From: Blastobasis lacticolella | Lineage: Eukaryota > Arthropoda > Insecta > Lepidoptera > Blastobasidae | NCBI GenBank assembly: GCA_905147135.1 | Contig: LR990064.1 | Coordinates: forward strand, 10,186,001-10,250,000 | DNA length: 64,000 bases | Direction of reading: 5' to 3' | Shown: positions 1 to 64,000 of the stretch, piece by piece | Layout of the letters: each line of letters starts with the position of its first letter | Position numbering within the stretch: the first letter of the stretch is position 1 | The notes under the pieces: generated by a model | The model's input: only the letters and a program-made list of their open reading frames with translations | What the model was told of the DNA's origin: nothing | Databases searched by the model: none | Position numbers and translations under genes: made by a program

Positions 1-1
1 A

Positions 2-190
2 TTGAAGAGAATATCACGAAGACTTGAAGAAAATGGGGGCAACAAACATTCGTCATTGCTGCGTCGAAGAAAGAAGTACACCCACAAAATCAACAAGCTC
101 GTGGTGAAAAAGGAAAGGCGAACGAAATTCTGTCAAGGAGTTGACGAAATTAGTGAGCTCCTAAACAGCATAGCAATCGTGCGACACTGA
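2..190 (+). CDS. Gene B copy 1, basic protein, 5' cut by window edge
   Basis: Encodes residues 22-83 of the 83-aa basic protein described at 9616..9867, with an identical amino-acid sequence over that stretch. The promoter and first 21 codons lie outside the window. The stop is followed after 48 nt by its histone-type stem-loop. Confidence 0.72.
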   Translation: MKRISRRLEENGGNKHSSLLRRRKKYTHKINKLVVKKERRTKFCQGVDEISELLNSIAIVRH

Positions 191-238
191 CATGGACCGT
201 TGATGCTTTGAGCTGAAACGATCCATAGTGACATAAAA

Positions 239-254
239 GGCCCTTATCAGGGCC
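239..254 (+). terminator. Histone-type 3' stem-loop of B copy 1
   Basis: GGCCCT-TATC-AGGGCC forms a perfect 6-bp stem with a 4-nt loop, preceded by AAAA and followed by ACAA, 48 nt after the stop. This fits the metazoan replication-dependent histone mRNA 3' end (6-bp stem beginning GG, loop with U at positions 1 and 3). SLBP and U7 snRNP act on such sites. No AATAAA occurs in the roughly 450 nt downstream, so cleavage without polyadenylation is the likely fate. Confidence 0.85.
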
Positions 255-710
255 ACAATTTATTCCTAAAGTTTCTAAGACACCAAAAAATACGAAAGTT
301 TTTAATGGCTTCATGAATTACCCCTAAGTAGGTATATATAAACCCTTTCTTGTAATTATTGTCGTTAGGTGCCTACCTATTTTCGTTTGAATATCGCCAC
401 TGACATAGTCCAAGTTTCGGATTATCCTGAATGTTATCCCATTCTTTGGTGACATACAACGTTGTTTTACCACATTCATAAATCGACGAATTCGTTTGTG
501 AACAAACCTCTTTTCGTTTGTGGAATTGCATAAAGCAAACAAACCCAATAATATCTAATAATTCATGAAAAGATTAAACAACTACTCAAATACACCTAGT
601 GTAACAGTACCATCCTGGGGAGTAAATATGGGAAATGCAATGTGTTAAGTGCATAAATATCTGTATAAATAATTTAAATAGAAAAATCTTAGCACACTAG
701 CACAATCACA
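255..710 (+). other. B-A spacer
   Basis: 456 nt, AT-rich. The first 45 nt resemble the region after the A stem-loop and probably include the histone downstream element. I see no coding gene beyond. Equivalents: 9932..10387, 20235..20690, 23766..24221, 36383..36838, 46689..47144, 50205..50660, 60511..60966. BEL elements inserted at the right edge of this spacer in three units. Confidence 0.7.
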
Positions 711-746
711 ATCTGAGAACGACAATACGCTACACTGATTACCCCG

Positions 747-804
747 CCCTTTAGGGTGACTACCTGCTTATATATAGCTTTGAAATTTTAAAAACTATTC
801 ATTC
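747..804 (+). promoter_or_regulatory. Core promoter of A copy 1
   Basis: The palindrome CCCTTTAGGG lies at 747-756, TATATATA at 769-776 and an initiator-like TCATTC at 799-804. The putative start at A801 is 32 bp from the TATA box, giving a 33-nt leader to the ATG at 834. The spacing matches textbook TATA promoters and the B promoter. The transcription start is inferred. Confidence 0.65.
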
Positions 805-833
805 TGTCGTTGACCGTGCGAGGCGCAACAGCA

Positions 834-1154
834 ATGGATAACTTTTTCGACGACGACACGATGGACCTTAGCCTGCCCGCCATCGCCATCGCCAGCGGCT
901 CCGGTTACTCTCCGGCTGTAGCGGAGTCTCCGCCGAGCTGGACGGTGGACAATTTAAATTCTTCGGAAATGTCATGGTCATGGAATTCCGATTCCGATGA
1001 TGACCTGGAAGCGAGCGACGACTTGTTGGATCTTCCCAGTCCAACCAATAGTTGTTACTCGCCGTCTCCGGAGTATGCATTTGAGGATCCTGAGCACGAA
1101 AACGAAATCGAAGAGGTCGTCCAGTATCCGGTTGAAACGGCTCCTGCAGCGTGA
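834..1154 (+). CDS. Gene A copy 1: 106-aa acidic protein with histone-type mRNA end
   Basis: Not recognised. The protein has 25 D/E and no lysine or arginine (one histidine), so it is strongly anionic. Residues 1-11 hold an aromatic/acidic patch (MDNFFDDDTMD). Residues 36-50 hold three tryptophans. Residues 52-68 are an S/D/L-rich acidic stretch (SDSDDDLEASDDLLDLP). Residues 69-80 hold S-P pairs (PSPTNSCYSPSPEY), and the C-terminus is E/P-rich. There is no signal peptide or membrane segment. The composition is PEST-like and resembles disordered activation domains or acidic histone chaperone tails, but no family is assignable. I chose the ATG at 834; the frame is open slightly upstream, but that part lies at or before the inferred transcript start. 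It is intronless and lies on the same strand as B. A role as a chaperone or partner of B is inference only. Confidence 0.75.
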   Translation: MDNFFDDDTMDLSLPAIAIASGSGYSPAVAESPPSWTVDNLNSSEMSWSWNSDSDDDLEASDDLLDLPSPTNSCYSPSPEYAFEDPEHENEIEEVVQYPVETAPAA

Positions 1155-1172
1155 AGCCCCCCCACATGAAAC

Positions 1173-1188
1173 GGCCCTTTTCAGGGCC
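1173..1188 (+). terminator. Histone-type 3' stem-loop of A copy 1
   Basis: GGCCCT-TTTC-AGGGCC lies 18 nt after the stop, flanked by AAAC and ACAA. It is the classical animal histone stem-loop pattern. The next 45 nt nearly match those after the B stem-loop. An AATAAA at 1327-1332 could serve as a back-up polyadenylation signal. Confidence 0.88.
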
Positions 1189-2279: not shown

Positions 2280-3115
2280 CCATTCTTCATCTTCTCGCGC
2301 GTGCGCGGAGCGCACGTGCGGGGAGACCGCTTGGGTCGTGCCCACTGGCGGTGGTGTGCTTACGCGGGCCGTTAAAACGGCCCGGTCGTTTGGTTTGGCT
2401 CCCCCGGCATTTCACGCACGGGGGGGGAGCGGGCCTCGGCTTGGGATGTTGTGGTGCCGGTGTTGCCTCGATGTGACAGTCCGGTCTGTGGGGTTTGCGC
2501 CCCCCGCTAGCTCTTCTTTGCCGCCCTCGGCGCGGTACCAGCCTGCCGAGTGGGACCCCGTTCGGGGAGGCCCGGCAAACGACCAGCGAGCGGGCGGCAT
2601 CCTGCAGCGAGGGGTGCGAGGCGTCAGACCGGTACCGCTACCGTTGAAACTCTCCCGAGCCCCAACGGCAGCGGCAGTCGTTGGTGTGATGTTGGCAGCC
2701 CTGTTTCTACTTATCTAGTAGAACGTAGAAGATAAAAAATTTTTTGTGCGGGTACTTGCACAAAATTTTCATTGATGCGACCCATTCATGCGCATGAATG
2801 GTTCATTCAATGCGCATGAATGGGCCGGTACAGTTAATCGCACTACGGCGCGGAATTCCATTGATGCGCGGGTCCATTCATGCGCTATGAATGGGATTAC
2901 TCACAGCGCATGAATGGACCGGTGACGGATGCTAGTGGCGCGGACGGCGCGAGTGGCGCAGTGGCGCCGGCGCGCGTCTGCGTTGCAGTGGTGTCGGGTT
3001 CAGGTTTGGGGGCACCAGTTTCGGTTTTTTTGCAAAGCCGACTCTGGCGACCCCGTCACGTTCGGTGGTGTTGCCGCGGGACTCACCCGGGTGGGGATTT
3101 CCCGCGGCAATGGTG
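2280..3115 (-). other. 3' UTR of Jockey-1 with palindromic repeats
   Basis: Contains the perfect 20-bp palindrome CCATTCATGCGCATGAATGG at 2782-2801 and several degenerate copies of ATGCGCATGAATG up to about 2915. A GTGC...GCAC hairpin with A/T-rich arms lies near 2734-2770. Structured 3' UTRs often serve as reverse-transcriptase recognition sites in LINEs; that role is inferred here. Confidence 0.6.
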
Positions 3116-5896
3116 TCAGGTTGGGGTGTCTAGTCCGGTGGTGGCTGCCGCGAGCTCACCCGGGTGGGGAGCTCCAGCGGCAGCGGGTGTCACATCAGGT
3201 GCGACGGTCGTCGTGGGCCCCAGGAGCTCTCGTGGGAGCGCTCTGGAGCTGCGGTCAGGTGGGCGTGCGTGTAGCGGCGCGATACCGCGGATGTGCGGGT
3301 ACGCCGAGTTGTCGGCGGACTCGAACATCCGCCGCGCCAGACGCACGACGAAGTCGTCCAGGCCCTCGTGCTGGAGATCCCGGCTGATGGTGGAGTTTCT
3401 CACGTACCTGCCGGCGCCGACAATGGTGCGCAGGGAGAGGTTCTCCTGCGCTCGGAGGCGTTGCCGCTGGCTGTCAGCGGCCAGGGCGTACCACGCCGGC
3501 GCGGCGTACGTGAGGCGGGATCTGATGTACGTCTTGTAGATCCCCAGCTTGGCCCGCAGTGGTAACGAGCTAGCGAGGACCGGACGTAACTTACTTCGCG
3601 CCACCTTTGCGGCGACGACCGTCTGTTGGACGTGGTCGTGCATAGTGAGGCCCTGGTCGATGGTGAGACCCAGGTACTTCACCCTGCGCGACCACGGGAT
3701 GTCTTGTCCGTGTAGGCGCAGTGGAGGGGGTAGCTCGGCGATGTTCTGCCTCCGCCCGACGATCATGGCCTGCGTCTTCGCGACGTTCACCGACATTCCC
3801 CACTTGTCGAGCCAGGGTGGTAGGGCGTCGAGCTGGGCTTGCATCTGTTTGATGGCGTGCTTGATGTTCACCGACGAGCTCTGGTACGCCGTGTCGTCGG
3901 CGAAGAGCGCCAACAGCACGCCAGTGCTCACGGGGATGTCGTCGGTGAACAGGGCGTAGAGCGCAGGCGAGAGGCAGCTACCCTGTGGCACGCCGGCGAG
4001 GACTCGGCGCACCGACGAGGTCTTGTCCTCCACTGCTACTTGGAACTCCCTGTTGCGCAGGAAGCTGGCCACGACCTGTAGGACCCCGCGTGGAGCGGCA
4101 CTCTCCGACAGTTTGTATAGCAGGCCCTCGTGCCATACCCTGTCGAAGGCCTTCTCCATGTCCAGCATCACCACTACCGAGTACTCACGCTTGTTCCGGC
4201 AGGTGGCCAGACAATGCAGTACCCGGGAGAGCTGGAGCGTCGTAGAATGGCCCGGCCTGAAGCCAAATTGCTCCGGCCTGGGCTCTACGTGCGGGGTCAG
4301 GAGGCGAAGCAGGAGCGTTTCGAACACCTTGGAGAGCATCGACAGCAGCGTGATGGGGCGGTTCCCCTCCGGCTTGGTGGAGTTCTTCCCGGGCTTGGGC
4401 AGCATAATGACGCGCCCCAGCTTCCAGGATGACGGGAAGTGACCCGTGCGCAGAATTCCGTTGCACACGCGGGTGAAAGTCGCCACGGTGCGCGGCGGTA
4501 GGTGGCGTAGCGCCGCGTTTGTGATACGGTCTGCGCCCGGGGCCTTGCGGGGATTGGTGCGGGCGAGTGCGCGCTGCACGGTGCCCGGGGATACGAACAG
4601 GGGTTGTTCGTCTGCCGGGGGTGGTGCTGCCAGACGCTCTCGTAGCTGTCGCTCGACTGCTTCGCGGTGGTCGTGGTCCGTCGTCTCGTTCGGGGTGAAC
4701 TGCCTTTCTAGGTAGTCGGCGAAAATCTCCGCCCTATCTTCCGCCTTGTACCTAGGTCGGCAGTCAGTGTCTAGTAGTGGCCGGACGGGCTGGGGTTTGG
4801 AGGACAGTTGGCGGCAGAGACGATGCACGGAGGGCACGTGATCGCTCACCTCCCTAATGTGGTCCTCCCAGGACTCAGCAGCGTGGTCGACGAGCGCTGC
4901 CTTCACCCTCTCCACCAAGGTATTGAGCCTGGTTTTGAGGGTTGGGCATCGGGTACGGTGCCACAGCCGCCGCAGATCGCGTTTCTCCCTGATGAGCGCC
5001 TGGATCCGCGCGGGCAAAGGCTCGCGCCTCGCCCTGCGCGGAACGGTGTGGGTTGATGTTGCGATTGCGGTCTGGATGGCGGCTGTTAGCTCCCCAGTGG
5101 CTCGTTCGACGTCGTCCGGCGTGGAGATGGGCATTGTCGGGGTGTGGGCCTCCAGGTGTGCGGCGAAGGCCTCCCAGTCGATCCGTGGGCGTTGCGGCGG
5201 CGGGGCAACCCTTACGGGCGACCCGGCCAGCTCGCATAGCACGGGGCGGTGGTCCGATGGGAGGTCGTATAGGACCTCCTGCGTCAGCTGCAGTGCGCCT
5301 AGACCTCTATGGACCACGATGTCGAGCACGTTGTCGGTCCGCCCGGTTGGGTCCAGGCGGGTCGGCTCGTCCGGGGCGTCGATGTTGTACTCGCGGTCCA
5401 TAGAGTCGCGCATGAGGTCTCGGCCGGCAGCGCAGATGGTCGCGCAATGCCAGGCCGTGTGGTGCGCGTTGAGGTCCCCCGCCAGGATGGTCGGCAGGGG
5501 GGACTGCAGCAGGAGGTCCCGCAGTTCCCGCACTATAAGCGGGGTAGCGGGGGGTCGGTAGGCGGCGTACACGCGGATGTCAACGTTACCCACGTGTAAG
5601 TCGACACCCAGCGCGTACATGCTCTGGAGGCTCACTGGTGGTGTTGGTTGGTGGACTACCCGGCGGTGGACGAGGACGAGAAGGCCTCTGTAGGCCCTCC
5701 CCTCTGGTGACACCTCGTCCTGTCGGTACGCCAAGTAGCCTGGGAAGTTGTAATTGTCTGTTTGTCGTAGGTGGGTCTCGCTCACAAGTGCCACGTCGAT
5801 ATCCTGCTCCCTAAGGAAGTGAAGGAGCAGGCGACGCTTGTTCCTGAGCGAGCCCGCATTCCAGTGCACCAGTCTCAATGGTTTGTTGTTATCCAT
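3116..5896 (-). CDS. Jockey-1 ORF2: endonuclease-reverse transcriptase, 926 aa
   Basis: Makes the target nick and copies the element RNA in target-primed reverse transcription. The N-terminal AP endonuclease (about residues 1-225) shows HWNAGSLRNK (N13), SETH (E40), GDLNAHH near residue 140 and SDHRPV near 219. The reverse transcriptase shows RPITLLSMLSKVFE, LDMEKAFDRVW near 575, GVPQGSCLSPALYALF, the catalytic FADD near 664 and VKYLGLTID. The length is normal for Jockey ORF2 and no RNase H domain follows. The start ATG overlaps the ORF1 stop in ATGGATAA, suggesting coupled termination-reinitiation. No stop or frameshift is seen. Confidence 0.93.
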   Translation of the reverse strand: MDNNKPLRLVHWNAGSLRNKRRLLLHFLREQDIDVALVSETHLRQTDNYNFPGYLAYRQDEVSPEGRAYRGLLVLVHRRVVHQPTPPVSLQSMYALGVDLHVGNVDIRVYAAYRPPATPLIVRELRDLLLQSPLPTILAGDLNAHHTAWHCATICAAGRDLMRDSMDREYNIDAPDEPTRLDPTGRTDNVLDIVVHRGLGALQLTQEVLYDLPSDHRPVLCELAGSPVRVAPPPQRPRIDWEAFAAHLEAHTPTMPISTPDDVERATGELTAAIQTAIATSTHTVPRRARREPLPARIQALIREKRDLRRLWHRTRCPTLKTRLNTLVERVKAALVDHAAESWEDHIREVSDHVPSVHRLCRQLSSKPQPVRPLLDTDCRPRYKAEDRAEIFADYLERQFTPNETTDHDHREAVERQLRERLAAPPPADEQPLFVSPGTVQRALARTNPRKAPGADRITNAALRHLPPRTVATFTRVCNGILRTGHFPSSWKLGRVIMLPKPGKNSTKPEGNRPITLLSMLSKVFETLLLRLLTPHVEPRPEQFGFRPGHSTTLQLSRVLHCLATCRNKREYSVVVMLDMEKAFDRVWHEGLLYKLSESAAPRGVLQVVASFLRNREFQVAVEDKTSSVRRVLAGVPQGSCLSPALYALFTDDIPVSTGVLLALFADDTAYQSSSVNIKHAIKQMQAQLDALPPWLDKWGMSVNVAKTQAMIVGRRQNIAELPPPLRLHGQDIPWSRRVKYLGLTIDQGLTMHDHVQQTVVAAKVARSKLRPVLASSLPLRAKLGIYKTYIRSRLTYAAPAWYALAADSQRQRLRAQENLSLRTIVGAGRYVRNSTISRDLQHEGLDDFVVRLARRMFESADNSAYPHIRGIAPLHARPPDRSSRALPRELLGPTTTVAPDVTPAAAGAPHPGELAAATTGLDTPT

Positions 5897-8117
5897 TGAG
5901 CTGGGTCACGGCGTCAGATGTTCTCGGGGCGGTGGGCTGCGCGCGCTTGGCGAGCAATGCTGCCAACATCGCCATAGCGGCGCGCAGCTCTGCGTCGGGG
6001 TCGTTGTCCGGCGCGGGGCTAGCCGGCGGCCTTGCGTGCGGCTGGGCGGGTGCGGGGGTGAGGGCTGGGGGCGCGGGTGCGCGCTGCGTAGCCGCAAGGT
6101 CGCCGCGTCGCCGTTTGAGTGGCGGGCGGGCGACTGCGGGGTGCGGTAAGCGGGGGGCGGGCTGGTTCGCGCAGTGTGCGCTCGCTAGTGGCGGCGCCAC
6201 CGGCGCAGCCGCTGTTGTTTGGGCTGCGCGTTTTTTCTTTTTGTTTCCCTGCCTGCGGGAAACAAAGTTATTTCGCTGCGATGCGGGGTCGTTTGCCGGC
6301 GCCATTAGTGTCGCCGGCGCCGACTCCGTCACTTGCGTGGGGTGTAGCGGTCGAGATGGTGGGCCTGTGCGGGCTACGGTTCCCGCCTTGCGGTTCCGCA
6401 TCTCGCGGCGCAGCACGGGGCAGGAGGAGTGGTTCGCTGGGTGGGGGCCACGGCAGTTAACGCACGTGGCCGGCTCCGTTCGTGGGCGCGGGCAGTCGGC
6501 GGCGGCGTGCGCGTCTCCACAGCGCACACACGCCTGCGGGCGGTGGCAACATTTGGATGAGTGCCTAAATGCCTGGCATCGGTGACACTGTGCGGGGCCC
6601 TTCTTGCCCCGCCAGTCTTCTATTTTGATCCCCGGCATGTTCAATAACTCTGTGGTGTTATATATGCCGGGGGTTAAGTCGGGGGTTTGTTGGAGTACGA
6701 TGTGGAATATGCACCCCGGGCGACCCTGTCGCGCCTTTATGTTGCGTACATATTCCACAACGTACCCGCGCTGCTCTAGTGCGATCTTAATTGTTTCTGG
6801 CGGCGTGTCGGCCGGGAGGCCACGCAGCGCCACCTTGTGGCTGCGTTCCGCCGGCATGGAGTATGAGAACCAGCTGATCCCTTCCGTCTCTAGGGACGAC
6901 AGGTATCCCTGGATCAGCCGGTACTCCTCTGCGGACTGCGGTGAGAAACGCACGCCCTGTCCATAGGGGCGCGCGTTGGGCGGGTGGCCTAGTTTGGCCG
7001 CTAGGGCGGCGAAGTGGGTTGCCCAGTCTGGGAGCCGCTCCACCACGAGGGGCGGGTAGCGCTCCCGCTTCGGTGGTGGATCGGCTGGAGCTGAGCCGCC
7101 ATCCGTGGCGGGGGGTTTTGGCGATGCCGCTGCTGCGGCGTAGTTGCGCTGCGGCGTCGCCCGGGGCGCGGGTTGCGGTTGTAGTCGCGGTGCGGCGACC
7201 CCTGACGGGCCGGGGGCGCACTGCGGTTGCTGTTGGGCGGTCGTTGGGCGGCCGTGCATAGCGGCCGGCGGCGCTGCCCCGCGCGATGGGCGCTGGGGCA
7301 GAGGTGCGGCCGCGGTTGCGCGGCTTGTGGTGGCCGTTGTGGGCGGCAGTGGGCTGGCAGTGGCCGCCTGTGTCGTCGTCGGGCGTTGTTGCGCCGTCAG
7401 CGTCGACGGCGGCGTCGCAACGCCGAAGGCGTCGCGCCACTTCTTGACGCTAGGTGTCAGCGGTGGCGACGGCGTTTGTTGGGCCGCCAGGTCGAGTATT
7501 TTGGCCGGGGCGTCCTTGAAACGCACTCGGGGGTCTCGGGAGGTGGTCGGTGGCGGCGCTGTAGGCGAGTCGTTCGTCGCACGGCTCTCTGAGCGCGTGC
7601 GACGGGCGTCACCTACCTGTGTATCCCGCGTTGTTTTGCGCAGCGGGGTCAGGGCGGCTCTCGGGCTGGTCGCCTTCCGCTTGAGGGTAGGCGGCAGGGT
7701 GAGCGGAGCGCCTGCGAGCGCGTCCAGGGCCTGGAGCGCTGTCAGGTCAGCGGGGCAGAGCGCCGGGGCGTCGCCCAGCTCGTACTCGCGTACGCGCAGG
7801 TACGACGCCATCCAGCGCTGGAGGCCGTCGCTGAGGTAGCCGGCCTGCGCGATGCGGGCCACCATCACGAGGTCCGATTCATATCGGACTCTCGGTGATG
7901 AGGCCGCTGCGCTGGCCCTCTGCTGTGTTGCGGCTGGGCCGGAGATGGTACCTCCTAGGGAGTCCTGGTGGGCTGTTGGTGTTGGGGTCGTTCCCGGCGG
8001 TGCGGGTCTCGACGGCGTCGACGTTGCGTCGGCCCATTCGGGGCGAGCGACGTCGGTCGGCGTTGCGGGAGCCGGGATCGGGTCCGTCTCCTTGGGCGTG
8101 GCAGGCATGTCGCACAT
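5889..8117 (-). CDS. Jockey-1 ORF1: gag-like RNA-binding protein, 742 aa
   Basis: Nucleic-acid-binding ORF1 of a Jockey-type LINE. The first 400 or so residues are low-complexity, rich in Pro, Ala, Thr and Arg. A pre-C2HC-like domain follows (about 415-495). Three zinc knuckles lie near 506-560: CHRCQAFRHSSKCC, CVRCGDAHAAADC and CVNCRGPHPANHSSC. The tail is again Pro/Ala-rich. The last 8 nt overlap the ORF2 start. The ATG at 8117 is the first in frame; a second Met is at residue 4. Confidence 0.9.
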   Translation of the reverse strand: MCDMPATPKETDPIPAPATPTDVARPEWADATSTPSRPAPPGTTPTPTAHQDSLGGTISGPAATQQRASAAASSPRVRYESDLVMVARIAQAGYLSDGLQRWMASYLRVREYELGDAPALCPADLTALQALDALAGAPLTLPPTLKRKATSPRAALTPLRKTTRDTQVGDARRTRSESRATNDSPTAPPPTTSRDPRVRFKDAPAKILDLAAQQTPSPPLTPSVKKWRDAFGVATPPSTLTAQQRPTTTQAATASPLPPTTATTSRATAAAPLPQRPSRGAAPPAAMHGRPTTAQQQPQCAPGPSGVAAPRLQPQPAPRATPQRNYAAAAASPKPPATDGGSAPADPPPKRERYPPLVVERLPDWATHFAALAAKLGHPPNARPYGQGVRFSPQSAEEYRLIQGYLSSLETEGISWFSYSMPAERSHKVALRGLPADTPPETIKIALEQRGYVVEYVRNIKARQGRPGCIFHIVLQQTPDLTPGIYNTTELLNMPGIKIEDWRGKKGPAQCHRCQAFRHSSKCCHRPQACVRCGDAHAAADCPRPRTEPATCVNCRGPHPANHSSCPVLRREMRNRKAGTVARTGPPSRPLHPTQVTESAPATLMAPANDPASQRNNFVSRRQGNKKKKRAAQTTAAAPVAPPLASAHCANQPAPRLPHPAVARPPLKRRRGDLAATQRAPAPPALTPAPAQPHARPPASPAPDNDPDAELRAAMAMLAALLAKRAQPTAPRTSDAVTQLNG

Positions 8118-8415
8118 TACGCACTGAACGCACTGCCACTGGTGTCAATGTCACTTATAGAGTTCACTCTGTCGCACGGCACTTCTCAGCCCGAATACCG
8201 AGGTATGGTGGCGCCGGATCCTTTCGGAACGGGTGCCGGAGGTTATTCCATCAGAAATAACCTCCGACAGCTGTACTGGGCTCGGGAGAAGGGGTCGTTT
8301 TTCGCGTTGGGAGGGAGTTGTCTCGACCTCAACCAAACGGGATTCCACGGAACGCGAGGGTAATTTTCGTTTTCGTGGTCGACTCAGCGATGTGCTTGCG
8401 CGCGCGAAACTGTCC
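8118..8415 (-). other. 5' UTR / internal promoter region of Jockey-1
   Basis: 298-nt leader abutting the right target duplication, so the 5' end is probably intact. It contains an 11-bp hairpin with an 8-nt loop (arms 8237-8247 and 8256-8266). LINE 5' UTRs usually hold an internal promoter; none can be proven here. Confidence 0.5.
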
Positions 8416-9615: not shown

Positions 9616-9867
9616 ATGGCTCCCGCGCGAAGTGCCTCGCGTAATATCGACGATCGCCTGGACAAGTATGACAGGAAATTGAAGAGAATATCACGAAGAC
9701 TTGAAGAAAATGGGGGCAACAAACATTCGTCATTGCTGCGTCGAAGAAAGAAGTACACCCACAAAATCAACAAGCTCGTGGTGAAAAAGGAAAGGCGAAC
9801 GAAATTCTGTCAAGGAGTTGACGAAATTAGTGAGCTCCTAAACAGCATAGCAATCGTGCGACACTGA
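9616..9867 (+). CDS. Gene B copy 2: 83-aa basic protein with histone-type mRNA end
   Basis: Not recognised. It has 24 K/R against 10 D/E, net about +14. Residues 10-31 look like a helix with a clean heptad pattern (L15, Y18, L22, I25, L29). ENGGN (31-35) is a likely turn. Residues 36-80 form a second probable helix carrying the clusters RRRKK (42-46) and KKERRTK (57-63), which could act as nuclear signals or nucleic-acid contacts. There is one cysteine (C65), no signal peptide and no membrane segment. It is not a core or linker histone by sequence. The ATG at 9616 is the first after the inferred transcription start; the earlier ATG at 9578 is upstream of that start and out of frame. All copies that are complete encode the same protein. 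A nuclear, DNA- or RNA-binding role is inference. Confidence 0.75.
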   Translation: MAPARSASRNIDDRLDKYDRKLKRISRRLEENGGNKHSSLLRRRKKYTHKINKLVVKKERRTKFCQGVDEISELLNSIAIVRH

Positions 9868-14367: not shown

Positions 14368-14427
14368 AGTCGTAGACTGGGCGATAGGTGAACCGAGTGA
14401 TGCCTTTCTTACGCCATCCTGTATAAC

Positions 14428-19584: not shown

Positions 19585-19800
19585 TGATGATCCAATGCAG
19601 ATGGAAAACCCGTAATTGCTTTATTTCGTTTCAGCAGTTTCCGTTTAGGTATAGGGTGTAAATTAAAGTTGCAATGATGTAAAAATGAAAAAGTACATAT
19701 AAAACTGGGGTTAAAGTCAACACTCAAGAATCTTATGTCAAGACTTACGTAATGTTAAAAAGATGATACCTATAAAAGTAACTTATTTGCTAGGTTAGCT

Positions 19801-19907
19801 GAAAGAGATATATAGCGCTATCTCTTTCACGAGCCTGCAGGAATCACGCGACCGGGCGAATAGCCGTCCCGCATAAATACATGCGCTCTGCTTGCGACAT
19901 CTCATTG
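19801..19907 (+). promoter_or_regulatory. Promoter of B copy 3
   Basis: Inverted repeat, TATA box and TCATTG as in copy 2. Confidence 0.62.
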
Positions 19908-19918
19908 CTCGTTCAGAC

Positions 19919-20170
19919 ATGGCTCCCGCGCGAAGTGCCTCGCGTAATATCGACGATCGCCTGGACAAGTATGACAGGAAATTGAAGAGAATATCACGAA
20001 GACTTGAAGAAAATGGGGGCAACAAACATTCGTCATTGCTGCGTCGAAGAAAGAAGTACACCCACAAAATCAACAAGCTCGTGGTGAAAAAGGAAAGGCG
20101 AACGAAATTCTGTCAAGGAGTTGACGAAATTAGTGAGCTCCTAAACAGCATAGCAATCGTGCGACACTGA
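19919..20170 (+). CDS. Gene B copy 3
   Basis: Protein identical to that at 9616..9867. It sits in an uninterrupted monomer, 643 bp upstream of the A start codon. Confidence 0.75.
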   Translation: MAPARSASRNIDDRLDKYDRKLKRISRRLEENGGNKHSSLLRRRKKYTHKINKLVVKKERRTKFCQGVDEISELLNSIAIVRH

Positions 20171-20218
20171 CATGGACCGTTGATGCTTTGAGCTGAAACG
20201 ATCCATAGTGACATAAAA

Positions 20219-20234
20219 GGCCCTTATCAGGGCC
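20219..20234 (+). terminator. Histone-type 3' stem-loop of B copy 3
   Basis: GGCCCT-TATC-AGGGCC, 48 nt after the stop. Confidence 0.85.
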
Positions 20235-20726
20235 ACAATTTATTCCTAAAGTTTCTAAGACACCAAAAAATACGAAAGTTTTTAATGGCTTCATGAATTA
20301 CCCCTAAGTAGGTATATATAAACCCTTTCTTGTAATTATTGTCGTTAGGTGCCTACCTATTTTCGTTTGAATATCGCCACTGACATAGTCCAAGTTTCGG
20401 ATTATCCTGAATGTTATCCCATTCTTTGGTGACATACAATGTTGTTTTACCACATTCATAAATCGACGAATTCGTTTGTGAACAAACCTCTTTTCGTTTG
20501 TGGAATTGCATAAAGCAAACAAACCCAATAATATCTAATAATTCATGAAAAGATTAAACAACTACTCAAATACACCTAGTGTAACAGTACCATCCTGGGG
20601 AGTAAATATGGGAAATGCAATGTGTTAAGTGCATAAATATCTGTATAAATAATTTAAATAGAAAAATCTTAGCACACTAGCACAATCACAATCTGAGAAC
20701 GACAATACGCTACACTGATTACCCCG

Positions 20727-20784
20727 CCCTTTAGGGTGACTACCTGCTTATATATAGCTTTGAAATTTTAAAAACTATTCATTC
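20727..20784 (+). promoter_or_regulatory. Core promoter of A copy 3
   Basis: Same elements as copy 1, with the native B-A spacer upstream. Confidence 0.65.
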
Positions 20785-20813
20785 TGTCGTTGACCGTGCG
20801 AGGCGCAACAGCA

Positions 20814-21134
20814 ATGGATAACTTTTTCGACGACGACACGATGGACCTTAGCCTGCCCGCCATCGCCATCGCCAGCGGCTCCGGTTACTCTCCGGCTGTA
20901 GCGGAGTCTCCGCCGAGCTGGACGGTGGACAATTTAAATTCTTCGGAAATGTCATGGTCATGGAATTCCGATTCCGATGATGACCTGGAAGCGAGCGACG
21001 ACTTGTTGGATCTTCCCAGTCCAACCAATAGTTGTTACTCGCCGTCTCCGGAGTATGCATTTGAGGATCCTGAGCACGAAAACGAAATCGAAGAGGTCGT
21101 CCAGTATCCGGTTGAAACGGCTCCTGCAGCGTGA
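20814..21134 (+). CDS. Gene A copy 3
   Basis: 106-aa protein identical to copy 1. Confidence 0.75.
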   Translation: MDNFFDDDTMDLSLPAIAIASGSGYSPAVAESPPSWTVDNLNSSEMSWSWNSDSDDDLEASDDLLDLPSPTNSCYSPSPEYAFEDPEHENEIEEVVQYPVETAPAA

Positions 21135-21152
21135 AGCCCCCCCACATGAAAC

Positions 21153-21168
21153 GGCCCTTTTCAGGGCC
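21153..21168 (+). terminator. Histone-type 3' stem-loop of A copy 3
   Basis: GGCCCT-TTTC-AGGGCC, 18 nt after the stop. Confidence 0.88.
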
Positions 21169-22857
21169 ACAATTTATTCCTAAAGTTTCTGAGACACCGA
21201 AATATACGAAAAATATTCATGCATTTATGTATTATAGCCATAACACCTTCCTTGTAAATTAAGACTTTGTGGCATAATTGACGTCAAATATGCGCCATGC
21301 AGGAAAAATAAAATTACCTGTTGTTGTACCTTTATCCATTTACCTGATGTTGTAAGCTGGATGACAACAGAAATTATAGATCTAATGATAGAAATAAGTT
21401 AGTTGTACCTAGATAGCGAAATAGGACACAAGAAAATTACTTTAAAATGTAGAAAAGAGATAGAAAAACATATTGTAAGGAATACCTCTTCCATGGCTAC
21501 TACCAACCATACACGCTTTATAAATAGCGAGCAAATAGACGGCAAACTCTTAAGCTACTTGGTGCTGGGAACGGACGTACGTGCTACAGAATCGCTGTTG
21601 GTTTTTATTAAGGTCACGTGAGCTATTTTTCTGATCACTTCCATTCTATTCTTCACTGGATTTCTGTGTATCTGATCTGGGCAAGTAGATAATCGTAATT
21701 GTGTTTAATTTAGTAAAAACTGCTGTTAATTTTGATTATTTGTATGTGATTTGTAAATTTATCTTATTTTTAACACAGCGCCACCTACCGAAAATTGGTG
21801 GTACCTATGTAATGTAGGTATCGTTGCGCGATACGGAATCAAATCCGATACAAGCGCCGCTATGACCGCATAACGGGAAAGACACGAACTATTCGTGCCT
21901 TAATGTACATACGTGTGCATTGTTGTTTATTTATACTTATTGGTGTGCATTCCTATTAATACGTCGAACACTATGCCACAAATTACGCACACAATCGCAC
22001 AGGGTAGGCAATGTATTTTCAGACGAAAAACCCTCCCTCAATCCCTCAAAAACCAAAAAAAGATAATGTAAATATTTTAAAATGTAGATTGCTAAAGTGT
22101 TGCGCTGATTTAATTTACTACCTTTACCTTTGTGTCGTATTGTATTATTTTTATGCTGTACTTGAAAATACTGAGTTGCGGGTCGCCCGCCATTATTTGT
22201 TTTAATTTATAAAAGCAGTTATCTGTCAGTGTGAAAATTGGATAACATTAACTGTGGAAGTTGTAAAGGTGGTGTTTATATAGAGAAAATAAATAATAAC
22301 GTATTTTCTAAACAACCTTTCAGTGAATAAAAGACACGTGATCGTGAAAGGCCGTTCTGACCAGATTTGCAAATAGTACAAACCTCGTCGTTTTTTGAAT
22401 CGTTTAGATCTAGGTTTGAATACATACATTTATGAATGCGTTTACGAAAAATAGGACCTCACATTTTAGAACATTATCATTTACATTTATGAAAAAACCA
22501 CCCTTTATCATCCACTGTCATCTCAGTTATTATTACTTTGTTTACCTAGTGTATCTTTTAATACTTATTTACCGAGTTAAGTATCTGATTATTTAGACCG
22601 TTATCACTTTCTATGGTGACATTGAATGTCGTTTCATCACATTGTAATTAGGTAGATATTTATTTATAAGAATGAAATAAATAAATCGAATATGTCGATC
22701 GTCAACGAACTTGTGCAACTTGACAAAATAACAAAGAATTAAAAATCCACAAAACCATGTTAGTACATTGAATAATTAATCTAAGTACTTACTTCTAATT
22801 TTTTTTGTTTAAAAGTTAGTAGGTATTGCTTTAATTTATTTTATTTGATGATCCAAT

Positions 22858-23115
22858 TCGCCGTGTGGTGTCCGGCAGAGTAGAATAGCACCAATCCCTT
22901 CACTCATGGGTGTCGTACAAGGCGACTAATGTTTTCGAGGAAAAAGATCAAGAGTCTCCGTAGTCTGGAGAATGGGCAGCAGCATTTTCCATTGTTATAT
23001 TTAAACACTGCGATCTCCAACCCGCCTGCCAAGCGTGGAGATTATGGCAACAATCCCCCTTTCGTGGGAGAGGCCCTAAGTCCTGCAGTGGACTGTTACG
23101 GGCTGTGATGTGATG
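22858..23115 (+). mobile_element. SINE-like retroposon, copy in U2
   Basis: 258 bp; target duplications 22846-22857 and 23116-23127. Confidence 0.62.
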
Positions 23116-23331
23116 TGATGATCCAATGCAGATGGAAAACCCGTAATTGCTTTATTTCGTTTCAGCAGTTTCCGTTTAGGTATAGGGTGTAAATTAAAGT
23201 TGCAATGATGTAAAAATGAAAAAGTACATATAAAACTGGGGTTAAAGTCAACACTCAAGAATCTTATGTCAAGACTTACGTAATGTTAAAAAGATGATAC
23301 CTATAAAAGTAACTTATTTGCTAGGTTAGCT

Positions 23332-35006: not shown

Positions 35007-35222
35007 TGATGATCCAATGCAGATGGAAAACCCGTAATTGCTTTATTTCGTTTCAGCAGTTTCCGTTTAGGTATAGGGTGTAAATTAAAGTTGCAATGAT
35101 GTAAAAATGAAAAAGTACATATAAAACTGGGGTTAAAGTCAACACTCAAGAATCTTATGTCAAGACTTACGTAATGTTAAAAAGATGATACCTATAAAAG
35201 TAACTTATTTGCTAGGTTAGCT

Positions 35223-35329
35223 GAAAGAGATATATAGCGCTATCTCTTTCACGAGCCTGCAGGAATCACGCGACCGGGCGAATAGCCGTCCCGCATAAAT
35301 ACATGCGCTCTGCTTGCGACATCTCATTG
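35223..35329 (+). promoter_or_regulatory. Promoter of B copy 5
   Basis: Inverted repeat, TATA box and TCATTG unchanged. Confidence 0.62.
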
Positions 35330-35340
35330 CTCGTTCAGAC

Positions 35341-35592
35341 ATGGCTCCCGCGCGAAGTGCCTCGCGTAATATCGACGATCGCCTGGACAAGTATGACAGG
35401 AAATTGAAGAGAATATCACGAAGACTTGAAGAAAATGGGGGCAACAAACATTCGTCATTGCTGCGTCGAAGAAAGAAGTACACCCACAAAATCAACAAGC
35501 TCGTGGTGAAAAAGGAAAGGCGAACGAAATTCTGTCAAGGAGTTGACGAAATTAGTGAGCTCCTAAACAGCATAGCAATCGTGCGACACTGA
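35341..35592 (+). CDS. Gene B copy 5 (in the partial unit)
   Basis: Protein identical to the other copies. It is followed by another B rather than by A, so B outnumbers A here. Confidence 0.75.
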   Translation: MAPARSASRNIDDRLDKYDRKLKRISRRLEENGGNKHSSLLRRRKKYTHKINKLVVKKERRTKFCQGVDEISELLNSIAIVRH

Positions 35593-35640
35593 CATGGACC
35601 GTTGATGCTTTGAGCTGAAACGATCCATAGTGACATAAAA

Positions 35641-35656
35641 GGCCCTTATCAGGGCC
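35641..35656 (+). terminator. Histone-type 3' stem-loop of B copy 5
   Basis: GGCCCT-TATC-AGGGCC, 48 nt after the stop, retained despite the truncation about 200 nt further on. Confidence 0.85.
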
Positions 35657-35948
35657 ACAATTTATTCCTAAAGTTTCTAAGACACCAAAAAATACGAAAG
35701 TTTTTAATGGCTTCATGAATTACCCCTAAGTAGGTATATATAAACCCTTTCTTGTAATTATTGTCGTTAGGTGCCTACCTATTTTCGTTTGAATATTGCC
35801 ACTGACATAGTCCAAGTTTCGGATTATCCTGAATGTTATCCCATTCTTTGGTGACATACAAATGTCAACACTCAAGAATCTTATGTCAAGACTTACGTAA
35901 TGTTAAAAAGATGATACCTATAAAAGTAACTTATTTGCTAGGTTAGCT

Positions 35949-54200: not shown

Positions 54201-55240
54201 TGGTGCGGTAAATAAATTGCCTTTGGATTGCCTTTTTCCGTATCAGGTACTACCTCCATGTGGTTCAATTCGAGGTACTCGTTGATAACTTCTGAATATG
54301 TACGCTTCAGGCGTTCATTCTTACTCAGCCTATATTCCAGTGAACGAAGCCGCTTTTCCGCAATCTTATACGAATCGGTAACCTGAGGTTTATCTTGATT
54401 AAAAGGAAGGCGCACGATGTACCTACCTTCCGCGTCTTTTCGAGTTGTTGCAGCAAAGTACTCTTCACAGCGCCTTTCATCATCCCTTAGAACCCTTTCC
54501 AAAGACTCAAAATTATCGGATTCCAGTTCCCATAAGCGCTTTAATAAATCATTATCATCTACGCGACAATGCATAACCTTGATATCTCTATCATTATTAT
54601 AAGTTGATGTCTTCACGACACCCGACAATATCCATCCCAAAGTCGTAGACTGGGCGATAGGTGAACCGAGTGATGCCTTTCTTACGCCATCCTGTATAAC
54701 CTTTCCGTATACCTCAGCTCCTAACAGCACATCTATGCGGTTTGGTGTGTGGTATTTAGGATCAGCCAACACTAAGTTGTTAAATTCCGTCCAACATATT
54801 GAATCCACCTTTGTTGCAGGGAGAAGAGTCGTTATGGACTTTAAGACGTAAGCATTCACTTTGATGACACACCTGGAATCAATACGTGAAGTAATTTCCA
54901 TCGAAACCATCGCCTTGGAGATCAAACTATTATCTCCACCAATGCCTGTAATTTTTCCTCTTACAGGAATCTTTTTCAACCCCATTTGCTGTACTACTGA
55001 TTCTGTCACAAACGATGATTGTGACCCCTGATCCAGTAACGCGCGAATCATAAAGCTTTCACAGTTTTTCGACAAAGCTTTGACTAACGCCGTCGCCAGC
55101 AAAACTTGATCACATACCCTACCTGTCGAAAAACAGGAAATAATTGGATCGTCAGTCAACTTGGCAGTTGCTATATTAGACACGTTGGTGTCTCCTGTAT
55201 TACTCCCATCTTTGTTGATACCATCTTGATATTTACCCAT
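51212..55240 (-). pseudogene. BEL-3 protease-pol region
   Basis: Same protein as the BEL-2 region, open from 55345 down with the first Met at 55240, and severed from gag by the TAA at 55346-55348. Confidence 0.9.
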
Positions 55241-55345
55241 ACCCTTAGGATGTAACAGAGAGTGATGCTTCCGTTTACAAATCCTACATGTAAAATTAGT
55301 TCGACAAGACTTAGCAGAGTGATTGCCACCCAGGCAAACGAAACA

Positions 55346-56017
55346 TTACTTATTTTTGAGAACGTACTCACGACGTGACTCAACGCTATCTTTAATAAAC
55401 TCCTTGCAAGAACTAAGTCTATGATCGCCTTGACAAAATATACATTTTAAATTCGCTGTGACATGCAGAGATTTAACCCTATTAACAGGGGGATGATTGT
55501 TACTATTCTGTGACTTATTGCTTGCATTGGACCTCGGATCAAGAAACTCAATAGCACGATATCTATTAGTAATGAATTCTGAAAACTGTTTATATGTAGG
55601 CAAAGTATTAGGACTCGTGCTATTCATTACGGAAAATTCCCATTGCCTTCTAGATTCGTGGTCCAATCGCGTGGTCAACAGATGTATGATGATAACATCC
55701 CAACTCTCAGTCTCAACACCCAAATTTGACAAAGCAGACAGACAATCGTTGGTAGTATCAATTAAACCTTTCAACGCAACAGCTGATTCATTAGTTAAAC
55801 TTTTTAGTCCAAAAAGTCTACTAAGAATATGGTGGCAAATATACTTCTTATTATTATACCTCTCCTCTAGTATTTGCCAACACCTGCCATAATTATCGTC
55901 AGCGATAGGTATATTTCTTAAAAGTTGTTCAGCCTCGCCCTGTAAATAACCCTTTAAATAATGTAACTTTTGAACCCCATCTAAATCCTGATTACAATGC
56001 ACTAATGATCGAAACAA
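55346..56017 (-). pseudogene. BEL-3 gag middle part
   Basis: Same as the BEL-2 fragment, with the same stop in the zinc-knuckle region. Confidence 0.85.
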
Positions 56018-56442
56018 ATCCCTAAATGTTGGCCATTCGGAATATTTACCACTAAAAACAGGAATGTTATTTTAGGCAACATTACTCGAGACGATGACGT
56101 ACTAGATGTCTTAGCTGTGCATTCAACACTACCACTGCTTTCAACACTATCAAATGCCAACATTGCCGATTTAAGTGCACATTTATAATCCATATAAGCC
56201 TCTTCGGTAGTATCATATGTCTCATTTGTTACATACTTTGTCTTCCGCAAGTCTTCGGATAATACACTACGCAATAATTCCTTATGACCAGTTAAAAATT
56301 CTAGCCACAGTTGATCAATACTCTCTGAACGCGTCTCAATGTACTGTTTAGTAATGCGATCTTTCGGGCTTTTCTTAAAATTAGAATAAGCTTTCAAAAT
56401 TCGTGCAGATAAATCTGCCTGAAAGTTGAGTATAAGATCCAT
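56002..56442 (-). pseudogene. BEL-3 gag N-terminus
   Basis: 146 codons with the shared frameshifted end. Confidence 0.8.
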
Positions 56443-57152
56443 GATTTATAATAAATAATTATAAGACACGACGAGAGAAGTGAACAACAAACTACTTTAA
56501 CTTTATATCAACTTATACCAAGAAGCACACAATACTTAAAATATTCTAAGTGTTTGGGATACAACTTAATTCTTGCGGAAATCCGGCATGGATTCCCCGT
56601 ACCTCCGTTATTTTTCAAATTATTCTAAGTCCCAACACCAACTAGAATATTTTCTAAGTCCAAAACAGTTATAAATTTTCTAAGTTACAATCTTCCTGAT
56701 AATAAAGTCCATATTTGTTTAACAAAATAAAAAATAAAATCTTCAAAACACGTAAGTTTAAATCCTCTTGAAGTTAAAGTTGCAATTCCTCTGGCAAAAT
56801 ATCACAAAAGTACTCACAGTTTATGCGCACATCACACTTCACCACACTCGCACCGTTACCCTGATGACGTATTGTAGCCGCCCTGCACCACCTGATAGTC
56901 GACGTCCACCTTCTCAACCAGACACCTTCACTCCCGGCTGCATCAAAGTACTCCTGGTAGCTTACTCGCACTTGCCTCCACGTAATCCTGACAGTACCCT
57001 TGTACTGTCTGAAGCGCAGCGTTTCTGCAGCTGGCTCCTGGTCTACTACGTTTGCAATAGCGATCCACTATCCGCAGTAGGAGTAGGTATGTAGTATTCA
57101 AAAAAGCCGACTAAGTAGGCTAGTGCTCGGACCTGATCCAATATGACCAAAA

Positions 57153-57169
57153 TCCGGCTCGAAGGACCA
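57153..57169 (-). other. BEL-3 primer-binding site, tRNA-Tyr type
   Basis: TCCGGCTCGAAGGACCA beside the 5' LTR. Confidence 0.72.
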
Positions 57170-57435
57170 TGAACAAGCTCAGCAATTTTGCGGGCTCAGC
57201 ACGTCCAGGGTGTTCCCAAGGGTAGGTGAACTAGGAACGGGTTATCAATGAAACCAGTGGAAGTTCACATTCAAAAAAGGTATATTAAAAATTTACATCA
57301 TAAAGTATATGGCAAACTGCACGGAAAATATCGCTACCGCGATGTAAAAGGTAGGCAGCGCCATCTAGTGACACCAAGCGTAACTATATATAAAATGTAC
57401 GACTATAACAGTGTGATGTTAAAATACGTTCAACA
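57170..57435 (-). repeat. 5' LTR of BEL-3
   Basis: 266 bp, same as the other two 5' LTRs. Confidence 0.93.
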
Positions 57436-57558: not shown

Positions 57559-57879
57559 ATGGATAACTTTTTCGACGATGACACGATGGACCTTAGCCTG
57601 CCCGCCATCGCCATCGCCAGCGGCTCCGGTTACTCTCCGGCTGTAGCGGAGTCTCCGCCGAGCTGGACGGTGGACAATTTAAATTCTTCGGAAATGTCAT
57701 GGTCATGGAATTCCGATTCCGATGATGACCTGGAAGCGAGCGACGACTTGTTGGATCTTCCCAGTCCAACCAATAGTTGTTACTCGCCGTCTCCGGAGTA
57801 TGCATTTGAGGATCCTGAGCACGAAAACGAAATCGAAGAGGTCGTCCAGTATCCGGTTGAAACGGCTCCTGCAGCGTGA
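57559..57879 (+). CDS. Gene A copy 7
   Basis: 106-aa protein identical to copy 1; BEL-unit synonymous marker at Asp7. Confidence 0.75.
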   Translation: MDNFFDDDTMDLSLPAIAIASGSGYSPAVAESPPSWTVDNLNSSEMSWSWNSDSDDDLEASDDLLDLPSPTNSCYSPSPEYAFEDPEHENEIEEVVQYPVETAPAA

Positions 57880-60194: not shown

Positions 60195-60446
60195 ATGGCT
60201 CCCGCGCGAAGTGCCTCGCGTAATATCGACGATCGCCTGGACAAGTATGACAGGAAATTGAAGAGAATATCACGAAGACTTGAAGAAAATGGGGGCAACA
60301 AACATTCGTCATTGCTGCGTCGAAGAAAGAAGTACACCCACAAAATCAACAAGCTCGTGGTGAAAAAGGAAAGGCGAACGAAATTCTGTCAAGGAGTTGA
60401 CGAAATTAGTGAGCTCCTAAACAGCATAGCAATCGTGCGACACTGA
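60195..60446 (+). CDS. Gene B copy 9
   Basis: Protein identical to the other complete copies. Confidence 0.75.
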   Translation: MAPARSASRNIDDRLDKYDRKLKRISRRLEENGGNKHSSLLRRRKKYTHKINKLVVKKERRTKFCQGVDEISELLNSIAIVRH

Positions 60447-61060: not shown

Positions 61061-61089
61061 TGTCGTTGACCGTGCGAGGCGCAACAGCA

Positions 61090-61395
61090 ATGGATAACTT
61101 TTTCGACGACGACACGATGGACCTTAGCCTGCCCGCCATCGCCATCGCCAGCGGCTCCGGTTACTCTCCGGCTGTAGCGGAGTCTCCGCCGAGCTGGACG
61201 GTGGACAATTTAAATTCTTCGGAAATGTCATGGTCATGGAATTCCGATTCCGATGATGACCTGGAAGCGAGCGACGACTTGTTGGATCTTCCCAGTCCAA
61301 CCAATAGTTGTTACTCGCCGTCTCCGGAGTATGCATTTGAGGATCCTGAGGAAGAGGTCGTCCAGTATCCGGTTGAAACGGCTCCTGCAGCGTGA
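61090..61395 (+). CDS. Gene A copy 8, 101-aa variant
   Basis: Same in-frame loss of residues 88-92 as copy 6. Confidence 0.75.
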   Translation: MDNFFDDDTMDLSLPAIAIASGSGYSPAVAESPPSWTVDNLNSSEMSWSWNSDSDDDLEASDDLLDLPSPTNSCYSPSPEYAFEDPEEEVVQYPVETAPAA

Positions 61396-61413
61396 AGCCC
61401 CCCCACATGAAAC

Positions 61414-61429
61414 GGCCCTTTTCAGGGCC
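61414..61429 (+). terminator. Histone-type 3' stem-loop of A copy 8
   Basis: GGCCCT-TTTC-AGGGCC, 18 nt after the stop. Confidence 0.88.
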
Positions 61430-63125
61430 ACAATTTATTCCTAAAGTTTCTGAGACACCGAAATATACGAAAAATATTCATGCATTTATGTATTATAGCC
61501 ATAACACCTTCCTTGTAAATTAAGACTTTGTGGCATAATTGACGTCAAATATGCGCCATGCAGGAAAAATAAAATTACCTGTTGTTGTACCTTTATCCAT
61601 TTACCTGATGTTGTAAGCTGGATGACAACAGAAATTATAGATCTAATGATAGAAATAAGTTAGATGTACCTAGATAGCGAAATAGGACACAAGAAAATTA
61701 CTTTAAAATGTAGAAAAGAGATAGAAAAACATATTGTAAGGAATACCTCTTCCATGGCTACTACCAACCATACACGCTTTATAAATAGCGAGCAAATAGA
61801 CGGCAAACTCTTAAGCTACTTGGTGCTGGGAACGGACGTACGTGCTACAGAATCGCTGTTGGTTTTTATTAAGGTCACGTGAGCTATTTTTCTGATCACT
61901 TCCATTCTATTCTTCACTGGATTTCTGTGTATCTGATCTGGGCAAGTAGATAATCGTAATTGTGTTTAATTTAGTAAAAACTGCTGTTAATTTTGATTAT
62001 TTGTATGTGATTTGTAAATTTATCTTATTTTTAACACAGCGCCACCTACCGAAAATTGGTGGTACCTATGTAATGTAGGTATCGTTGCGCGATACGGAAT
62101 CAAATCCGATACTAGCGCCGCTATGACCGCATAACGGGAAAGACACGAACTATTCGTGCCTTAATGTACATACGTGTGCATTGTTGTTTATTTATACTTA
62201 TTGGTGTGCATTCCTATTAATACGTCGAACACTATGCCACAAATTACGCACACAATCGCACAGGGTAGGCAATGTATTTTCAGACGAAAAACCCTCCCTC
62301 AATCCCTCAAAAACCAAAAAAAGATAATGTAAATATTTTAAAATGTAGATTGCTAAAGTGTTGCGCTGATTTAATTTACTACCTTTACCTTTGTGTCGTA
62401 TTGTATTATTTTTATGCTGTAGTTGAAAATACTGAGTTGCGGGTCGCCCGCCATTATTTGTTTTAATTTATAAAAGCAGTTATCTGTCAGTGTGAAAATT
62501 GGATAACATTAACTGTGGAAGTTGTAAAGGTGGTGTTTATATAGAGAAAATAAATAATAACGTATTTTCTAAACAACCTTTCAGTGAATAAAAGACACGT
62601 GATCGTGAAAGGCCGTTCTGACCAGATTTGCAAATAGTACAAACCTCGTCGTTTTTTGAATCGTTTAGATCTAGGTTTGAATACATACATTTATGAATGC
62701 GTTTACGAAAAATAGGACCTCACATTTTAGAACATTATCATTTACCACCACTTTACCACACAAAACCACCCTTTATCATCCACTGTCATCTCAGTTATTA
62801 TTACTTTGTTTACCTAGTGTATCTTTTAATACTTATTTACCGAGTTAAGTATCTGATTATTTAGACCGTTATCACTTTCTATGGTGACATTGAATGTCGT
62901 TTCATCACATTGTAATTAGGTAGATATTTATTTATAAGAATGAAATAAATAAATCGAATATGTCGATCGTCAACGAACTTGTGCAACTTGACAAAATAAC
63001 AAAGAATTAAAAATCCACAAAACCATGTTAGTACATTGAATAATTAATCTAAGTACTTACTTCTAATTTTTTTTGTTTAAAAGTTAGTAGGTATTGCTTT
63101 AATTTATTTTATTTGATGATCCAAT

Positions 63126-63383
63126 TCGCCGTGTGGTGTCCGGCAGAGTAGAATAGCACCAATCCCTTCACTCATGGGTGTCGTACAAGGCGACTAATGT
63201 TTTCGAGGAAAAAGATCAAGAGTCTCCGTAGTCTGGAGAATGGGCAGCAGCATTTTCCATTGTTATATTTAAACACTGCGATCTCCAACCCGCCTGCCAA
63301 GCGTGGAGATTATGGCAACAATCCCCCTTTCGTGGGAGAGGCCCTAAGTCCTGCAGTGGACTGTTACGGGCTGTGATGTGATG
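63126..63383 (+). mobile_element. SINE-like retroposon, copy in U7
   Basis: 258 bp; target duplications 63114-63125 and 63384-63395. Confidence 0.62.
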
Positions 63384-63599
63384 TGATGATCCAATGCAGA
63401 TGGAAAACCCGTAATTGCTTTATTTCGTTTCAGCAGTTTCCGTTTAGGTATAGGGTGTAAATTAAAGTTGCAATGATGTAAAAATGAAAAAGTACATATA
63501 AAACTGGGGTTAAAGTCAACACTCAAGAATCTTATGTCAAGACTTACGTAATGTTAAAAAGATGATACCTATAAAAGTAACTTATTTGCTAGGTTAGCT

Positions 63600-63706
63600 G
63601 AAAGAGATATATAGCGCTATCTCTTTCACGAGCCTGCAGGAATCACGCGACCGGGCGAATAGCCGTCCCGCATAAATACATGCGCTCTGCTTGCGACATC
63701 TCATTG
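63600..63706 (+). promoter_or_regulatory. Promoter of B copy 10
   Basis: Inverted repeat, TATA box and TCATTG unchanged. Confidence 0.62.
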
Positions 63707-63717
63707 CTCGTTCAGAC

Positions 63718-63969
63718 ATGGCTCCCGCGCGAAGTGCCTCGCGTAATATCGACGATCGCCTGGACAAGTATGACAGGAAATTGAAGAGAATATCACGAAG
63801 ACTTGAAGAAAATGGGGGCAACAAACATTCGTCATTGCTGCGTCGAAGAAAGAAGTACACCCACAAAATCAACAAGCTCGTGGTGAAAAAGGAAAGGCGA
63901 ACGAAATTCTGTCAAGGAGTTGACGAAATTAGTGAGCTCCTAAACAGCATAGCAATCGTGCGACACTGA
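63718..63969 (+). CDS. Gene B copy 10
   Basis: Protein identical to the other complete copies. Its stem-loop would begin just past the window end. Confidence 0.75.
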   Translation: MAPARSASRNIDDRLDKYDRKLKRISRRLEENGGNKHSSLLRRRKKYTHKINKLVVKKERRTKFCQGVDEISELLNSIAIVRH

Positions 63970-64000
63970 CATGGACCGTTGATGCTTTGAGCTGAAACGA
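63718..64000 (+). repeat. Array unit U8 (cut by window end)
   Basis: Holds a complete B gene; the array therefore continues beyond the window on this side, as it does on the left. Confidence 0.9.

Follow-up and report, generated by a model that had tools for sequence, protein, structure and literature searches.

A 64,000-nt stretch of the genome of the moth Blastobasis lacticolella (contig LR990064.1 of assembly GCA_905147135.1, forward-strand positions 10,186,001 to 10,250,000; this whole stretch is hereafter the window, numbered from its first letter) is a head-to-tail repeat of a 3,531-bp unit, interrupted by five retrotransposon insertions. The unit carries two small open reading frames (ORFs) on the + strand, B and A, whose 3' ends are each followed by a perfect histone-type stem-loop and a common downstream flank. 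By analogy with established histone biology, the array probably yields S-phase bulk mRNAs that are processed by SLBP and U7, lack poly(A) and encode an orphan pair of one basic and one acidic protein.

In the mechanism that we propose, each array unit would give rise to two short mRNAs, both open without introns. The A and B mRNAs would be cut by U7-type cleavage at or near an ACAA motif, just past an SLBP-bound stem-loop, and would receive no poly(A) tail. Such a histone-type 3' end would tie bulk synthesis of B and A to S phase, with the germ line or early cleavage as the most plausible setting.

Stem-loop elements and their flanks

A first-pass annotation of this DNA had described a tandem array of two genes with a perfect 6-bp-stem, 4-nt-loop element 48 or 18 nt past the stop at every A and B 3' end. 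Both claims hold, the first with the qualification that retrotransposon insertions make up about 34.8 kb of the window. The histone-type element follows all nine B and all eight A genes whose 3' ends lie in the window (17 of 17), always on the + strand; it reads GGCCCT-TATC-AGGGCC at B, 48 nt past the stop, and GGCCCT-TTTC-AGGGCC at A, 18 nt past the stop.

20219..20234, + strand: B histone-type stem-loop GGCCCTTATCAGGGCC, reference copy, 48 nt after the stop
239, 9916, 23750, 35641, 36367, 46673, 50189, 60495, + strand: starts of the other B stem-loop copies
21153..21168, + strand: A histone-type stem-loop GGCCCTTTTCAGGGCC, reference copy, 18 nt after the stop
1173, 17625, 24684, 44076, 47592, 57898, 61414, + strand: starts of the other A stem-loop copies
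20235..20277, + strand: B downstream flank, candidate U7/histone downstream element (HDE) region, 40 of 43 nt matching the A flank
21169..21211, + strand: A downstream flank, candidate U7/HDE region

A looser pattern, GGYYYTNNNNARRRCC, recovers exactly these 17 elements in the window and none extra, against a chance expectation of 0.18 on average and three at most per window (100 dinucleotide shuffles). Because the copies are homogenised versions of two elements, the effective number of elements is two rather than 17. The Rfam model RF00032 (Histone3) matches all five elements in 17,000-25,000 over full model positions 1-46 (Rfam E-value mode), scoring 30.7 bits for B (E 9.8e-6) and 32.5 bits for A (E 2.2e-6) in this 8-kb search, and no other Rfam family appears there at E<=10. 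The exact stem-loop patterns occur zero times in the viral and prokaryote contigs, and phages gave no match.

The first bases past the stem are ACAA. Beyond the stem-loop, 43 nt of A and B agree at 40 positions, and blastn aligns the two 3' regions at 91% over 68 columns, while the coding sequences are unrelated. The 43-nt stretch lies where an element pairing with U7 snRNA would be expected, and its near-identity would suit a shared downstream processing signal or a common 3'-end origin. Within the 800 nt scanned past the stem-loops, poly(A)-type signals (AATAAA or ATTAAA) begin to appear 138 nt past the A element, as AATAAA, and 318 nt past the B element, as ATTAAA. Based on an alignment of the units with insertions removed, no copy has a variant in its stem-loop or in the sequence just downstream.

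The tandem unit and its coding potential

Pieces of the unit are 99.2-100% identical to a transposon-free reference unit (U3). The genes and their promoter candidates are as follows.

19713..23243, + strand: reference tandem unit U3, transposon-free, 3,531 bp
19919..20170, + strand: gene B coding sequence (CDS), reference copy, 83 amino acids (aa), isoelectric point (pI) 10.8, predicted helical hairpin
9616-9867, 23450-23701, 35341-35592, 36067-36318, 46373-46624, 49889-50140, 60195-60446, 63718-63969, + strand: further complete copies of gene B
1-190, + strand: partial tenth copy of gene B, truncated at the left window edge, open over the part present
20814..21134, + strand: gene A CDS, reference copy, 106 aa, pI 4.05, predicted disordered
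834-1154, 17286-17606, 24345-24665, 43737-44057, 57559-57879, + strand: further full-length copies of gene A
47268-47573, 61090-61395, + strand: short copies of gene A, 101 aa, with a 15-bp in-frame deletion (five codons) near the C-terminus
20750..20758, + strand: A core-promoter candidate ATATATAGC, consensus match only; TCATTC begins 29 bp on, at 20779
19873..19879, + strand: B core-promoter candidate ATAAATA, consensus match only; TCATT begins 29 bp on, at 19902
111 bp upstream of the B ATG, + strand: second B promoter candidate, ATATATAGC as at A, consensus match only

At both genes, a TATA-like box thus lies 29 bp upstream of TCATT, and these consensus matches predict short leaders. The complete ORFs are uninterrupted in nine of nine B copies and eight of eight A copies, with no intron needed. 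The aligned units contain two coding single-nucleotide polymorphisms (SNPs), both synonymous, and a single coding indel, the 15-bp in-frame deletion that two A copies have in common; 17 SNPs and two indel sites fall in the spacer (a patch in unit U9 at unit positions 2773-2781 counted as one site, and a 3-bp gap in U2 at 3379-3381 as the other). An ORF at least as long as B (>=83 codons) ending 0-60 nt upstream of the element arose in 139 of 20,000 local dinucleotide shuffles, and one at least as long as A (>=106 codons) in 77 of 20,000. The GC content of the B CDS (0.46) and the A CDS (0.54) exceeds that of the spacer stretch 21300-22800 (0.33), and within the CDS it peaks at third codon positions. 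In the ORF list for 16,000-25,500, the reference unit (19713-23243) has no ORF of >=100 aa except the frame of A itself, and so includes no intact histone ORF of such size.

Several points weigh against SLBP/U7-processed, S-phase mRNAs as the output of the array. This reading is built on signals in the DNA sequence, with the timing and the role of the proteins drawn by analogy. At the gathering threshold, Rfam finds no family in the window, and both Histone3 scores lie just below the curated cut-off of 34 bits. The lack of stem-loop variants among copies may be due to chance, and any signal of selection is weak because the copies are so similar (two coding SNPs and one coding indel). On the opposite strand, ORFs of 93 and 99 aa that overlap B and A are open too, although the position of the stem-loops fits the sense frames. 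In addition, PMC2781718 reports no evidence that Drosophila Slbp can bind non-histone RNAs.

Some of these points are shared with the view that the repeat is satellite-like DNA, with A and B as spurious, untranslated ORFs. Among near-identical copies, conservation of an ORF is partly trivial, the antisense ORFs are open as well, and no protein homologue was found in our searches. We consider this view very improbable, given that shuffles seldom place an ORF of such length before the stem-loop, for A as for B, that coding variants are only synonymous or in frame, and that the CDS differs from the spacer in composition.

It is likewise unlikely, to a lesser degree, that the stem-loops are vestiges captured from a histone cluster at the birth of the array, in which case the genes would be ordinary polyadenylated genes or silent. 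Histone3 scores under the Rfam cut-off, and poly(A)-type signals 138 nt beyond the stem-loop of A (AATAAA) and 318 nt beyond that of B (ATTAAA), agree with such an origin. In favor of functional 3' ends, the stem-loop lies near the stop in both genes, and stem-loop and downstream flank are unchanged in all copies, a comparison of low power.

Identity and possible role of proteins B and A

B is strongly basic (pI 10.8, 24 lysine or arginine among 83 residues), while A is acidic (pI 4.05, 106 aa). The first-pass annotation found that neither looks like a core or linker histone, and our searches agree: Pfam has no histone or linker-histone profile for A or B at E<=1, and PDB has no histone for either at E<=10. 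A and B thus appear to have no detectable histone homology, with a very remote relationship still conceivable. For both proteins, Pfam, NCBIfam and PDB yield no match of any kind that passes the curated cut-offs or reaches significance, and a set of weak matches was rejected. For B, the Pfam matches Dynamin_M (0.015), STAT_alpha (0.073), HR1_TOCA (0.13), DUF5713 (0.16) and SIR4_SID (0.19) fall far under the cut-offs and look like coiled-coil or composition noise, as do the NCBIfam MoaA models (0.0016 and 0.0041, under the cut-offs), and its one PDB sequence match (E 1.2) is insignificant. The PDB matches of A, to a fragment of RanBP2 (0.23) and to a carbohydrate-binding protein (0.35), are insignificant as well and look like noise of the same sort. 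In the viral contigs, A has no match, and a 45% match of B over 33 residues in one contig (L001) looks like a chance sharing of KKYTHKIN with an unrelated 872-aa ORF.

A database of 5.8 billion proteins, searched by a method that reaches close relatives only, contains no relative of B (two candidates) or A (six candidates) at E<=1. The neighboring jockey-like ORF served as a control: of the 7,993 candidates scored for it, at least 47 proteins matched at E<=1e-10. Of 13 control matches that name an organism, ten are from Lepidoptera (Mythimna, Tuta, Heliothis, Helicoverpa, Operophtera, Pieris and Eumeta) and the other three from a wasp, a beetle and a fish; none of the 15 top matches names an organism. 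These lepidopteran matches indicate that the database does hold moth proteins. They also fit a lepidopteran host, although transposons can pass from one host to another. The earlier description of A and B as an undescribed protein pair is in line with all searches, within their reach to close relatives. Small genes with non-polyadenylated mRNAs may also be easily overlooked in annotation.

From its single sequence, B is predicted to form a two-helix hairpin, with a mean predicted local distance difference test (pLDDT) score of 86.0 in the best and 68.2 in the worst of five models. A fold search with B gave best E-values of 1.1 in PDB and 0.82 in a viral library, which is uninformative for a simple hairpin, and there is no histone among the 50 listed of 139 PDB fold matches, all with E>1. 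A is predicted to be disordered (pLDDT 55.9), and its model is too poor for a fold search. Based on charge and predicted structure, we tentatively propose, as the likeliest role of the pair, that B might be a basic, helical-hairpin chromatin or nucleic-acid binder, with A as its acidic, disordered partner or chaperone, a role that we still rate as doubtful.

The histone-type 3' ends, the small size of the genes and the basic B (pI 10.8) would also suit histone-type or sperm nuclear basic proteins that have diverged so far that their homology escapes detection. This is improbable: A is acidic and predicted to be disordered, B is predicted to be a two-helix hairpin without a histone among those 50 listed fold matches, and the Pfam and PDB searches found no histone at the thresholds given above. 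The histone-cluster-like anatomy that the first-pass annotation had pointed out, with small intron-free ORFs in tandem, a stem-loop near the stop and the first AATAAA or ATTAAA 138 or 318 nt on, is borne out. Its interpretation as a whole is supported in part, namely in that this anatomy occurs without detectable histone homology.

Array history and known systems

The retrotransposon insertions occupy more than half of the window and belong to two kinds of elements.

10391-17159, 36842-43610, 50664-57432, - strand: BEL/Pao-type long terminal repeat (LTR) element, 6.77 kb, three copies, with Peptidase_A17, DUF1759, DUF5641 and RVT_1
2280-8415, 25791-34140, - strand: jockey-like non-LTR element, two copies, with an endonuclease-reverse transcriptase (EN-RT) ORF and a PRE_C2HC ORF
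35135..35865, + strand: shortened extra unit with B only, adjoining the B of the next unit at a 726-bp offset

The three Pao copies share one unit position, 126 bp upstream of the A ATG, in units U2, U6 and U8, bordered by ACAATC at either side, and these units have eight diagnostic SNPs in common. The copies are mutually 99.9-100% identical, yet the LTRs of one copy differ from each other at seven of 258 compared positions (97.3% identity). The simplest reading of near-identical copies with diverged LTRs is one older insertion that was later multiplied by unequal exchange. The array is probably older than the Pao insertion, as units with and without the element lie next to one another. Both jockey-like copies are at one unit site with a 10-bp target duplication, and the second (25791-34140) contains about 2.2 kb of additional internal DNA. 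At 35135-36428, two B genes follow one another without an intervening A; the B-only unit there looks like a remnant of unequal exchange. The array is probably under concerted evolution. Within the spacer, the stretch 19340-19590 and its equivalents may resemble a lepidopteran short interspersed nuclear element (SINE). A tRNA gene search found none.

The main rival concerns function: A and B may belong to a lineage-restricted selfish or sex-linked ampliconic family, acting in meiotic drive, as a suppressor or as a W-linked family, that acquired a histone 3' end and owes its spread or persistence to copy number, not to any housekeeping demand for protein in bulk. In its favor are the lack of relatives of A and B in the database searches, the 99.2-100% identity of unit pieces, the load of transposons and the spread of insertion-bearing units. 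Homogeneity, however, is equally expected in any tandem array. We see such a family as possible, if on the unlikely side, and it is compatible with the 3'-end mechanism proposed here.

Our preferred reading remains that of SLBP/U7-processed, replication-coupled mRNAs, which suggests that the machinery for producing histones has been co-opted by another pair of proteins. In our judgment, it is about evenly balanced whether SLBP/U7 processing in animals indeed extends beyond histones, to a second, non-histone replication-coupled cluster in this lepidopteran lineage that would produce an orphan basic/acidic pair in bulk at each S phase in the germ line or early embryo, perhaps as a chromatin component or as a drive system exploiting histone locus machinery. 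If true, replication-coupled mRNA metabolism would be open to capture by non-histone proteins, and the array would be a sign of two uncharacterised proteins that are required, or slipped in, in bulk while DNA is being copied. SLBP/U7 processing could also be tested on the array as a natural substrate outside the histones.

The histone stem-loop is generally regarded as private to histone mRNAs. In line with this, a 2009 article (PMC2781718) states that no direct regulation of non-histone genes had ever been ascribed to SLBP. Our literature search, mainly of titles and abstract openings and with few subscription journals, found no description of a non-histone array with histone-type 3' ends. 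According to PMC8190105, the great majority of the lepidopteran species that it mapped have just one histone H3 cluster.

Two known systems allow comparison. Ampliconic or selfish tandem families such as Stellate/Su(Ste) of Drosophila resemble the present array in having very homogeneous tandem copies of a gene without wide relatives; they are not known to have a histone-type 3' end. The replication-dependent histone clusters of animals are tandem repeats of H1-H2A-H2B-H3-H4. Unlike these clusters, the array has two genes per unit, and its products have no histone match; unlike the histone stem-loop, the B loop reads TATC rather than TTTC, and the elements of both genes score just under the RF00032 cut-off of Rfam. 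In other respects, the array is built like a histone cluster: it is a homogenised tandem of small genes whose reading frames need no intron, with short predicted leaders, each with a 6-bp, 4-nt-loop stem-loop no more than 50 nt past the stop, followed by ACAA, and with no poly(A) signal close by.

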